Assembly: GCF_913776295.1 (NCBI RefSeq)
Contig: NZ_CAJYOJ010000015.1
Span: 1-64,000, forward strand
Direction of reading: 5' to 3'
DNA length: 64,000 nt
Source of the DNA: an uncultured Pedobacter sp.
GTDB taxonomy: Bacteria; Bacteroidota; Bacteroidia; Sphingobacteriales; Sphingobacteriaceae
Shown here: piece by piece, positions 24,011 to 52,041 of the stretch
Numbering within the stretch: the stretch's first letter is position 1
How the letters are laid out: every line of letters begins with the position of its first letter
Program-made: the position numbers and the translations under genes
Notes under the pieces: model-generated
What the model was told of the DNA's origin: nothing
Database searches by the model: none
The model's input: only the letters and a program-made list of their open reading frames with translations

Positions 24011-25042
24011 TTATCGTAACGGATCAATTAAACCATACACTTCCCCCTCATATATACCCTTTAATAACCGCACCGCCATTTTACTCCTTTGCCCGGTTTG
24101 GCAATAACAAACCACTTTTTTATGTTTTGGAATAGCGGTGAGCGAATTTTTTAGTTCATATAAGGATATGTTTACCCCGCCCATATTGTTTTCTTCATGT
24201 TCATAATCTTCGCGTACATCAATTAAAAAAACTTTATCAGGCGATTCAGAAAGCCATTGATCCAAAGTGGCCTTGTCAATTTCCTGTATTGCCTTCGTTT
24301 CGGATGTAATGATTGTTGTTTGCCTTTCGGAAGCAATTTTATATACGGATATTCTGTTGGTCAAGGCATCGATCGTCATCAATTTCCCAGAAAGCGTTTC
24401 GCCGATGCTGCAAATTAGTTTAATGGCTTCATTGGCCATATATAATCCGATAATTCCGGGTAAAATTCCGATTACGCCGCCTGCTACACAATTCATACTT
24501 TCGGCTGGCGGTGCCGGGTAAAGGTCTCTGTAATTAGCGCCACCTTGATGATTGAACACCGCAACTTGTCCTTCAAAAGCCAGGATGGAGCCGAATACCA
24601 AGGTTTTGCCTAAGCTTATACAGGTATCGTTCACCAGGTACCGTGTGTTAAAATTATCAGAGCAATCCATCACCAGATCATATTCCTGGCAGATAGATAT
24701 TGCATTTTCTGCAGTAAGGCGTTCGTTATAAGCCGTAAAATTTACGTGTGGATTAAGCAATGCAAGTTTAGTAGCCGCTACCTTTGCTTTTGCCAGGCCA
24801 ATATCGTTATCGTTATATAAAATCTGCCGGTGCAGGTTGCTTAACTCCACTGCATCATCATCTACAATACCTATTTTGCCCACGCCTGCTGCGGTGAGGT
24901 ATTGTAATATAGGGCAGCCCAGGCCACCGGCACCGATAACCAATACTTTGGCCGCCTGCAGCTTTTCCTGTCCCTCCAGGCCCAGTTCGGGCAAGATCAT
25001 TTGGCGGTTATAGCGGTTTAATTCTGTTTTAGCTAACATCAT
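24011..25042 (-). CDS. thiF: ThiF/MoeB-type adenylyltransferase fused to rhodanese
   Basis: An E1-like domain (about 1-240 from the chosen start) shows RYNRQ, the nucleotide loop GAGGLG and DLVMDCSDNF. A rhodanese domain follows, with active Cys in CYCQTGQRS. It adenylates the C-terminal glycine of ThiS, and the rhodanese part can pass on the sulfur. The CxxC zinc pairs of E. coli MoeB and ThiF are not visible. The start is ATG at 25042, which overlaps the thiH stop (ATGA); a frame to 25066 would add eight residues. It is the last gene of the thiamin operon, and MoeB-type use in molybdopterin synthesis cannot be excluded. Confidence 0.88.
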   Translation of the reverse strand: MMLAKTELNRYNRQMILPELGLEGQEKLQAAKVLVIGAGGLGCPILQYLTAAGVGKIGIVDDDAVELSNLHRQILYNDNDIGLAKAKVAATKLALLNPHVNFTAYNERLTAENAISICQEYDLVMDCSDNFNTRYLVNDTCISLGKTLVFGSILAFEGQVAVFNHQGGANYRDLYPAPPAESMNCVAGGVIGILPGIIGLYMANEAIKLICSIGETLSGKLMTIDALTNRISVYKIASERQTTIITSETKAIQEIDKATLDQWLSESPDKVFLIDVREDYEHEENNMGGVNISLYELKNSLTAIPKHKKVVCYCQTGQRSKMAVRLLKGIYEGEVYGLIDPLR

Positions 25043-30278: not shown

Positions 30279-30349
30279 ATTAAAAAAAATTGGAAAAACT
30301 ATAGAGATTGCCCCAAAATGGAGATCGAAAAGACAGCAATGATAAGATT

Positions 30350-30427
30350 GCTTTCACTTTTCCCTTCGGCAGTACTAACTGCATCAGGTTCAAAGGGTAT
30401 TTCTCAGCACGTAGGCACCCCTAAAGT
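30350..30427 (-). ncRNA. TPP riboswitch (THI element)
   Basis: On the - strand the conserved parts appear in order: GGGGTGCC, CTGAGA with ATACCC, TTTGAACCTGAT, GTTAGTACTGCCG and AAGGGA. This is the standard thiamin-pyrophosphate aptamer. A hairpin AGCAAT/ATTGCT (30336-30353) followed by TCTTTT lies just downstream and may be the terminator or expression platform. It controls the whole thiS-to-thiF operon. Confidence 0.95.
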
Positions 30428-30434
30428 TTTTTTG

Positions 30435-49657: not shown

Positions 49658-49975
49658 TTACTGTTGTAATTTAATTTCGCCTAAATCGGTAGTGGCGCTA
49701 TCTTTTACGGCAACCTTTTCCAGCACTGCATCTTTATATGGTGCATTGGCTTTTATCACTACAGTATAAACCCCTTCTTTGAGGTCGGTAAAAGTAAAAA
49801 CACCTTGATTAATCTGTGTACTTAGCGTGTCTTTTGTTGCTACAAGAGATACGGAAGCAGCCGCATCAATTGGTGTGATTTTCCCAATGATACCACCCAT
49901 TTTAACATTTTTAAAGGCAACAGAACCTAAAGCAAATATGATCAGTAGAGATAGTACAACACACAAATTTTTCAT
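49658..49975 (-). CDS. Small secreted protein with carboxypeptidase-regulatory-like fold
   Basis: This 105-residue protein has a signal peptide (to about residue 20) and a single beta-sandwich domain: GGIIGKITPID, then TFTDLKEGVYTVVI and a closing LGEIKL. The pattern is that of CarboxypepD_reg-like domains common in Bacteroidota envelopes. No catalytic residue. It ends at its own terminator. Confidence 0.78.
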   Translation of the reverse strand: MKNLCVVLSLLIIFALGSVAFKNVKMGGIIGKITPIDAAASVSLVATKDTLSTQINQGVFTFTDLKEGVYTVVIKANAPYKDAVLEKVAVKDSATTDLGEIKLQQ

Positions 49976-50116
49976 GGTATAACGTTTTAGTTGCTAAATG
50001 TCTTAAATACATAACAGCGGTTAGGGCAAATAGTTTTAAATAGTGAACACTATTTTTCTGTTTGTACTATAAATTATACATAAATGTAAAATCAAAATGT
50101 GTATATTTGTCACAAA

Positions 50117-50363
50117 CGTTAATTCGTGTTAAGCAATTTTGTCAATATAAGGGCTGTTGGTCAGAATTAAGTCACGAAGTTGTGATGAGCCGATTATTGG
50201 CAACAATGTTGTAATAAGCAAAACATATACGCGTTTTGTATATACTTTAGACAATGATCTAAAGCTTCCTCCGCGGATTAGTTACCCGCCATGAGGATTT
50301 CTTCATAAATAGTTTGTTTGGTTTATTATCCGGTTAGAGGAGCCCTCCTCAACCGGATTTTTT
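50117..50363 (+). ncRNA. Candidate structured small RNA
   Basis: No coding frame is visible here, but an intrinsic terminator ends the stretch. Upstream of it lie a perfect 7-bp hairpin CTTTAGA/TCTAAAG (50245-50264) and a longer stem built from CCTC, GCGG, CCGC and GAGG (about 50268-50305). A -7-like box TATATTTG (50102-50109) would start transcription near 50117; another, TATACTTTAG (50241-50250), overlaps the first hairpin. The 5' end is therefore uncertain. It does not match 6S, SRP, tmRNA or RNase P RNA in any way I can see. Confidence 0.5.
50328..50363 (+). terminator. Intrinsic terminator of the candidate RNA
   Basis: ATCCGGTT-a-GAGGA pairs with TCCTC-a-ACCGGAT around GCCC, followed by TTTTTTC. 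No protein gene precedes it on the + strand for several kilobases, so it most likely ends a non-coding transcript. Confidence 0.8.
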
Positions 50364-50411
50364 CTTTTAAGGCTTTTTCTTTTACATTTGACCGTATCCA
50401 GAAAACGTATC

Positions 50412-50942
50412 GTGAATAAAAATATAAAAAAGATAGCTATTGTTGGGCCGGAAAGTACGGGGAAATCTACCATATCTCAGTTACTGGCCAAATACTACAA
50501 AGTTTCGTGGGTGCCAGAGTATGCCCGTTATTACTGCGAAAATCTGATTACCGATTATACATTGCAAGATGAAATAAATATGTATTACGGGCAGGTAGCG
50601 TTAGAGGATGCAATTTTGGTTACCGCCGAGAGTGATTTTATTATCTGTGATACCACTTTTATTACGGTAAAGATATGGAGTGATGAAGTGCTTGGCGAGA
50701 CACCGCAGGTTGTATTGGAGGCACTGCCCAAAAAGCCGTACGATTTGTATCTGTTAATGGATATCGATTTGCCATGGCAGGACGATCCGTTGCGCGATTT
50801 TCCGGAGAAACGCGAATATTTTATGGAGGTTTGGCATAAAGAATTGCAGGCGCTCCGGGCCAATTATAAAGTTATCGGAGGTTTAGGTGAAGAGAGAGTC
50901 GCAAATGCCATTAAAGCCATCGATGTTTTTTTGGGTAAATAA
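50412..50942 (+). CDS. NadR-like nucleoside kinase/ATPase
   Basis: From GTG at 50412 the product is 176 residues; a TTG at 50388 would add eight and falls in the run after the terminator, so GTG is preferred. The P-loop GPESTGKST is followed by WVPEYARYY and LLMDIDLPWQDDPLRD, the pattern of the ribosylnicotinamide-kinase domain of NadR (AAA_28-like). It probably phosphorylates nicotinamide riboside or a similar nucleoside. The NMN adenylyltransferase and DNA-binding parts of full NadR are absent. Confidence 0.85.
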   Translation: MNKNIKKIAIVGPESTGKSTISQLLAKYYKVSWVPEYARYYCENLITDYTLQDEINMYYGQVALEDAILVTAESDFIICDTTFITVKIWSDEVLGETPQVVLEALPKKPYDLYLLMDIDLPWQDDPLRDFPEKREYFMEVWHKELQALRANYKVIGGLGEERVANAIKAIDVFLGK

Positions 50943-51555: not shown

Positions 51556-51731
51556 ATTGCGCTTCAAAAAAATAGAAATAATAATTTGAGATTATGTAAT
51601 TAACCGAACCTGGCTAACCCGAACTAGCCTAGATAAAACTCACCTCTGTGTAACTCGAAATATTGAGTTTGAAAACTCAATCCTATTCGTCAATCCGTAG
51701 AGACGCTGCGGTTAACGCTACGCACAGGAAA
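51556..51731. repeat. 175-bp direct repeat, copy 1
   Basis: It begins ATTGCGCTTCAAAAAA and runs to ACAGGAAA. It is repeated with few differences at 51868-52041. Shared blocks include AATTAACCGAACCTGGCTAA, CTAGATAAAACTCACCTC and TCCTATTCGTCAATCCGTA. Non-coding. Confidence 0.75.
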
Positions 51732-51867
51732 ATATGGTCAGGAAAGGGGATTCATAGTCGCACAGGCTCCAGCCAACATAGCCCTGATTGAAGTGGAAGC
51801 CCGCAAGCGAAGCATGAGCGCGGACTTATAACGGAAAGCAGGACAGGAATAACCGATCAGTACTACA

Positions 51868-52041
51868 ATTGCGCTTCAAAAAATAGAAATAACAATTTAT
51901 GATCCTTTAATTAACCGAACCTGGCTAACCAAACTTACCTAGATAAAACTCACCTCGGTTTAGCTCGAAATATTGGGTTTGAAAAATCTATCCTATTCGT
52001 CAATCCGTAAAGACGTTGCGCTTAACTCTACGGATAGGAAA
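51868..52041. repeat. 175-bp direct repeat, copy 2
   Basis: Second copy of the repeat at 51556-51731, in the same orientation and starting 312 bases later. It ends 11 bases before the lipoprotein gene's stop codon. The 136 bases between the copies are different sequence. No gene is seen in 50943-52051. Confidence 0.75.

Follow-up and report, generated by a model that had tools for sequence, protein, structure and literature searches.

The stretch of DNA analysed here (the window) comprises 64,000 nt of an uncultured Pedobacter sp. (NZ_CAJYOJ010000015.1, assembly GCF_913776295.1, positions 1 to 64,000). The locus under study lies between a 105-aa ORF on the minus strand (49658-49975), which adjoins it, and a NadR-like gene on the plus strand (50412-50942; AAA_28, PF13521, E = 3.5e-29; presumed GTG start); an upstream ORF of 945 aa, also encoded on the opposite strand, presumably specifies a carbamoyl-phosphate synthase large chain, which it was judged by eye to resemble. 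No gene precedes the locus directly on the plus strand, as the initial annotation had stated, and no plus-strand ORF of at least 60 aa was found there. The feature in this space is a predicted small RNA of about 144 nt (50224-50367, plus strand), here designated type A, whose position was derived from its promoter. A small protein gene was rejected, as the three plus-strand frames of at least 20 aa that overlap 50180-50375 all have TTG starts and none spans the core described below. A known RNA family was ruled out by Rfam scans (Rfam 15, 4227 models), in which the RNA stretch had no match at the gathering score and, up to an E-value of 10, a single match at chance level (E = 4.1); four further loci (one of type B, one of type C and two of type A) gave chance-level matches plus sub-threshold TPP riboswitch matches elsewhere in the locus. 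Over the entire window, Rfam gave a single match at the gathering score, a TPP riboswitch at 30344-30432 on the minus strand. Two non-coding stretches that look similar by eye, CGCTTCAAAAAAATAGAAATAA... and AATTAACCGAACCTGGCTAACC..., are also found in the window in one long intergenic region, at about 51560-51650 and 51865-51955.

In its predicted fold the RNA forms three hairpins, leaves 30 nt open, which include the entire core, and ends in a terminator. The 5' hairpin (50225-50243) was found in the minimum-energy fold, while the second, a perfect 7-bp hairpin CTTTAGA/TCTAAAG (50245-50264), can be read directly from the sequence and is also part of the fold. The third hairpin (50267-50297) pairs TCCTC with GAGGA around an inner GCGG/CCGC stem and is also predicted in homologues. 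The intrinsic terminator (50328-50363) consists of a 13-bp stem with one bulge, reading ATCCGGTT-A-GAGGA-GCCC-TCCTC-AACCGGAT at 50328-50358, followed by a T run. The region 50100-50370 folds at -71.4 kcal/mol, compared to -55.3 kcal/mol (sd 4.1) for dinucleotide shuffles (z = -3.9; 0/200 as low), and the shorter region 50250-50370 has a z-score of -3.4, with none of 200 dinucleotide shuffles equally low. The initial annotation had proposed a small RNA of 120 to 250 bases with a perfect 7-bp hairpin, a longer GC-containing stem and its own intrinsic terminator; all of these elements were located at the positions given above, and the comparative data support such an RNA. That proposal did not include the 5' hairpin or the single-stranded core, and its span (50100-50363) is longer than the predicted unit, which runs from about 50197, where the promoter begins, to 50367.

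The core, UUCAUAAAUAGUUUGUUUGGUUUAUU (50302-50327), is near-identical within the genus and has a mean unpaired probability of 0.67, versus 0.40 for the rest of the RNA. Of 41 relatives, 21 gave a match to the DNA of the region: 20 belong to the same genus, which is represented by 25 genomes (own genome included), and the remaining match, elsewhere in the class, is weak. When a sample of the family was scanned for the core, with up to 3 mismatches allowed over 24 core bases, it was present in 19 of 20 genus genomes, where 28 of 31 places had no mismatch, 3 places had three mismatches, and none had one or two. Outside the genus, the core was found in 6 of 131 family genomes, with 2 to 3 mismatches, and in 6 of 293 genomes of a phylum sample. 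An exact 21-base stretch of the core is carried by at least 118 stretches in the genome collection and by none of the virus contigs. Of the 118 listed stretches, 112 are titled Pedobacter, the others being from Nubsella, Sphingobacteriaceae, a Flavobacteriaceae and a Bacteroidota bacterium; they split into 83 of type A and 35 of a second type, B. Because these loci were selected by the exact 21-base stretch, they cannot themselves serve as proof of core conservation. The core is altered in a few species (L017, L018 and L020). Among seven genomes from other genera of the family, a covariance model picked out weaker relatives with a similar layout of GUUUGGUUU plus terminator (E = 2e-4 to 8e-3), some of which are unconvincing by eye. 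Taken as a whole, the comparison of sequences indicates that the locus very probably encodes a small RNA of Pedobacter, a genus of soil bacteria, that has been kept across the genus.

Comparison among the listed type A loci also bears on the structure of the RNA. In 76 of 83, the core is less paired than the remainder of the RNA, and it occupies an internal position behind the hairpins. Folding predicts the TCCTC..GAGGA hairpin for 79 of 83, and its inner stem ranges from none to GCGG/CCGC, GTGG/CCAC or TGCAAT/ATTGCA; literal CCTC..GAGG arms are present in 76, and the four loci in which the hairpin was not predicted (L097, L123, L135 and L169) were left out of the alignment. By comparison, the 5' half of the 7-bp hairpin is absent in many distant homologues. 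Near-identical loci had been thinned from 83 to 62 before the hairpin-less loci were removed. In 59 aligned sequences, 5 of the 10 consensus pairs of the terminator show changes on both sides; compensatory changes, by which the initial annotation had proposed that the stems be checked, are thus found in the terminator. RNAalifold on the MAFFT alignment did not recover the upstream CCTC hairpin, it seems because its arms were misaligned, and this hairpin was therefore assessed one sequence at a time. A simple terminator scanner did not report the terminator at 50328-50363, probably because the stem is bulged. The possibility that the CCTC hairpin and the terminator take part in antitermination was judged by eye and dropped, because in distant species the complement is gone from the terminator although the hairpin is retained.

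A sigma-54-type promoter element (-24 TTGGCA, -12 TTGT) is located at 50197-50212 on the plus strand, and the 5' end of the predicted RNA (50224) was placed 12 nt behind its -12 element. The -12 element of the window reads TTGT, versus TTGC in the sigma-54 consensus, and the -24/-12 spacing is correct. Across the homologues, 71 of 83 listed type A loci match at least 10 of 13 consensus positions, mostly as TTGGCA-N6-TTG[TC]A, and the other 12 are without a good site; in contrast, none of the 35 listed type B loci reached 10 and none scored above 8, and the maximum in a reversed-sequence control was 9. One rpoN gene is present in the own genome. Judging from these motif scores, the sigma-54-type element is the likely promoter of the type A RNA. 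In one species group of type A loci (L087, L093, L101 and similar ones), an upstream gene of the same orientation extends up to the RNA and apparently contains the sigma-54 site, so that the site could there be explained by coding constraint and a 3' UTR may be a further source of the RNA. Upstream of the promoter, an inverted repeat, GTCACGAAGTTGTGA (50171-50185, plus strand), is a candidate binding site for a sigma-54 activator; among 49 homologues with sufficient flanking sequence, 18 have a repeat of the type TCAC-N4..8-GTGA ahead of the sigma-54 site, and it lies at -26 in all carriers among the 40 rows listed. The possible -7 box TATATTTG of the initial annotation is present (50103-50110) but poorly conserved, the sigma-54-type element being conserved instead; it was ruled out as a promoter, as only 5 of the 49 homologues with sufficient flank have a TAnnTTTG in the 130 nt that precede the sigma-54 site, three of these at a similar position.

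In addition to type A, the core is found in other RNA genes of the same genomes, with AGUUUGUUUGGUUUA common to three gene types (A, B and C) in different settings. The own genome carries type A on C15, type B on C9 and type C on C5, each with an exact AGTTTGTTTGGTTTA, as well as a diverged type D (L456, G000:C37:24905, 24905-25013), in which UUCAUAGUUUAGUUUGAGGUUUAGG precedes the terminator, as it also does in L457, L458 and L460. Counting RNA genes and complementary sites together, the exact 15-mer was found in 53 of 60 genus genomes, compared to 6 places in total for the reversed control. In type B, the core is followed directly by a terminator of the GGGGCUUAUGGAUUUAAGCCCC type; the core was unpaired in the fold of one example and has a mean unpaired probability of 0.66 over the 35 listed loci. 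AAAC-N17-GTT occurs within 50 nt upstream in 33 of the 35 listed type B loci, as opposed to 1 of 83 listed type A loci and 0 of 35 reversed type B sequences, and all 35 carry the motif if the spacer is allowed to be 15 to 19 nt. Type B lies behind a gene that we take, by eye, to encode a metallo-beta-lactamase-fold-like protein in 32 of 35 listed loci, while the downstream genes vary. In type C, AGUUUGUUUGGUUUA is followed by a further hairpin. Among 16 divergent type C copies chosen by the core plus the loop TGTGGTG, all 8 pairs of this hairpin are formed in every copy and two pairs are changed on both sides; all 16 have AAAC followed after 15 to 19 nt by GTT, GTC or GTGT upstream. Judging from these motifs, the promoters of types B and C appear to be ECF-like. 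The divergent type C copies share the loop UGUGGUG, with which they were picked, and many (e.g., L304 and L393) carry a second segment, ACAGGGAU; in L393, two copies of type C are separated by about 1.1 kb.

Since conservation by itself cannot separate DNA from RNA, the core could in principle be a DNA element, such as an operator or a recombination site, beside an ordinary terminator. This seems highly improbable, given that in types A and B the core lies directly 5' of the terminator in a single orientation, that the predicted start of type B is at the core, that the core is not palindromic and that the flanking stems keep pairing. The genes downstream of type A raise another alternative, namely that the RNA is a cis-acting, riboswitch-like leader or attenuator of pnuC/nadR with a conditional terminator, in which the core senses a ligand or aids antitermination. 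The next downstream gene is indeed pnuC-like (a label we assigned by eye) in 43 and nadR-like in 28 of the 83 listed type A loci. However, 65 of 81 listed type A loci have a TAnnTTTG box in the 100 nt that follow the terminator, versus a mean of 6.5 and a maximum of 14 in mononucleotide shuffles; in the window this box is TACATTTG (50383-50390, plus strand), likely the NadR-like gene's own promoter box. The position of this box behind the terminator is indirect evidence that the type A RNA is probably not a leader of nadR, and the NadR-like gene is regarded as a neighbour outside the RNA unit. Moreover, the core and its own terminator recur at the type B locus beside unrelated and even opposite-strand genes, the core recurs again at the type C locus, and it stays constant while the terminator sequence varies (in sequences picked by part of the core). 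A leader function is therefore quite unlikely, and we hold with high confidence that 50224-50367 is a real, independent small RNA gene. In the window the NadR-like gene follows the RNA directly, and pnuC has possibly been lost or moved in this genome.

For an independent small RNA, the single-stranded core is a candidate pairing seed. Its complement often lies 15 to 47 nt before the start codons of genes for membrane or secreted proteins. The 13-mer complement AAACCAAACAAAC has 54 places in 10 genomes, of which 16 are type A or B genes and 6 are type C genes; among the 32 that remain, 15 (14 without one spurious case) have an ATG-initiated ORF of at least 80 aa within 60 nt downstream, compared to 4 of 21 places for the reversed pattern, although these sites are not independent because orthologues were counted separately. 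The genes concerned, which were named partly by eye, presumably encode SusC-like receptors, porin-like and other signal-peptide proteins, and GldL. A wider census of 87 loci, with places already known excluded, yielded 9 complement sites before genes (one, L279, is the site of L221 and had been counted before), 6 of them before signal-peptide or SusC-like genes and 2 before gldL. As a conserved target gldL was rejected, its site being kept in close species, altered in others and absent in L333-L337.

The SusC family has 53 matches above the family cut-off in the own genome. Of 56 SusC matches, 30 loci and 20 stretches were taken and 6 others were left out; 9 were dropped for unresolved starts and 41 were used. 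The predicted pairing of these 41 leaders with the 26-nt core averages -11.4 kcal/mol, versus -8.3 kcal/mol (sd 0.9) for shuffled cores (0/300), and the 39 leaders without the exact 13-mer still average -10.96 versus -8.23 kcal/mol (1/200). Leaders of 45 other genes of the window gave -8.95 versus -8.26 kcal/mol (29/300). A second control set of 68 genus genes, which was not purged of TonB receptors, gave -8.92 versus -7.83 kcal/mol (1/200), a smaller gain than for SusC, and with a 15-nt core 53 of 200 shuffles did as well. The reversed core, however, paired with the SusC leaders at -10.0 kcal/mol (-9.92 without the exact-match genes), with 15 nt the reversed and true cores were alike (-8.09 versus -8.15 kcal/mol), and on the 45 window genes the reversed core was better than the true one (-9.14 kcal/mol). 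As the reversed core is nearly as good, much of the SusC effect reflects base composition, and together with the control genes this makes the predicted pairing with SusC leaders moderate evidence for targets.

An RNA with an exposed U/G-rich core might also act as a decoy that titrates a protein, as CrcZ does with Crc/Hfq. The own genome encodes one RRM_1 protein, which could be the partner, and has no match to Hfq, and the presence of several RNAs with identical cores would suit such a role. On the other hand, each RNA carries a single core, strict identity over 24 nt exceeds what an RNA-binding protein usually needs, and complements of the core are found before start codons, which makes titration unlikely.

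Our preferred reading, to which we give a probability of roughly two in three, is an independent trans-acting small RNA whose core pairs with envelope mRNAs and lowers their translation in the manner of FopS. Conservation, structure, the promoter motifs and the shared core come out of the comparison itself, and independence from nadR is supported; for transcription, pairing, repression and the signals we infer the following course. Sigma-54 RNA polymerase, with an activator bound near 50171-50185, would start transcription at about 50224 and stop at the terminator at about 50363. The RNA would present the 26-nt unpaired core between protective hairpins, and the core would pair with A/C-rich leaders just upstream of the start codons of envelope mRNAs, above all those of SusC/TonB-dependent transporters, and thereby lower their translation. 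Paralogues B and C would bring the same core under ECF-like promoters, such that different envelope or nutrient signals could act on one target set.

Several elements of this proposal have counterparts elsewhere. The Qrr small RNAs of Vibrio have a sigma-54 promoter, several copies, an identical pairing core and an intrinsic terminator, features shared by the Pedobacter family (the promoter by type A), but they belong to another phylum, depend on Hfq and have quorum-sensing targets. RybB and MicA of enteric bacteria, with an ECF-type promoter, a 5'-terminal seed and outer-membrane protein mRNAs as targets, are similar to the scheme put forward here for types B and C, although they are unrelated in sequence and Hfq-dependent. 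Close in design, as far as the accessible text of that report describes it, is FopS of Bacteroides thetaiotaomicron, a set of 14 paralogous small RNAs in which a single-stranded 5' seed is combined with a terminator; they are transcribed from a sigma-ABfr promoter and repress SusC translation, with the RRM protein RbpB countering them (PMC11697453). Likened by that description and not by sequence, the Pedobacter family also has multicopy paralogues sharing one seed per genome (A, B, C and the diverged D), a single-stranded seed that precedes an intrinsic terminator (immediately in type B), SusC start regions as predicted targets, supported by the moderate pairing evidence, and an RRM_1 protein without an Hfq match. 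It differs from the FopS described there in the extra 5' hairpins of type A and the further hairpin after the seed in type C, in having sigma-54-type (A) and apparently ECF-like (B and C) promoters, and in its 3 to 4 copies in the own genome instead of 12 to 15. The Rfam scans found no match to a FopS-type family, in a library that may not contain FopS. In the portion of the Flavobacterium psychrophilum study available to us, this organism is described as using sigma-54 and CGT-box ECF promoters, each of which also precedes one putative RNA (Rfp36 and Rfp11), and its small RNA Rfp18 is said to use the third stem-loop for pairing, its targets being metalloprotease mRNAs (PMC9723704); the Pedobacter RNA is likened to Rfp18, by description and not by sequence, as a genus-wide small RNA in Bacteroidota.

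A wider and more doubtful possibility is that of a regulon throughout the Sphingobacteriaceae, in which one near-invariant seed, carried by sigma-54- and ECF-dependent genes, makes stress and nutrient circuits converge on all SusC/TonB transporters; such a counterpart of FopS might have arisen with promoters of another kind, or the two might descend from a common ancestor in early Bacteroidota. A description of the Pedobacter RNA was not found in searches of the open-licence literature, and trans-acting small RNAs of Bacteroidota have, in the sources accessible to us, been described from Bacteroides and Flavobacterium. Pedobacter adds a family spread over a whole genus, in which the seed is nearly letter-perfect, the promoter type can be named and a small number of targets are open to testing. 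If the proposal is true, control of SusC by paralogous small RNAs would extend beyond gut genera, and one seed would be seen to be wired to two alternative sigma factors.
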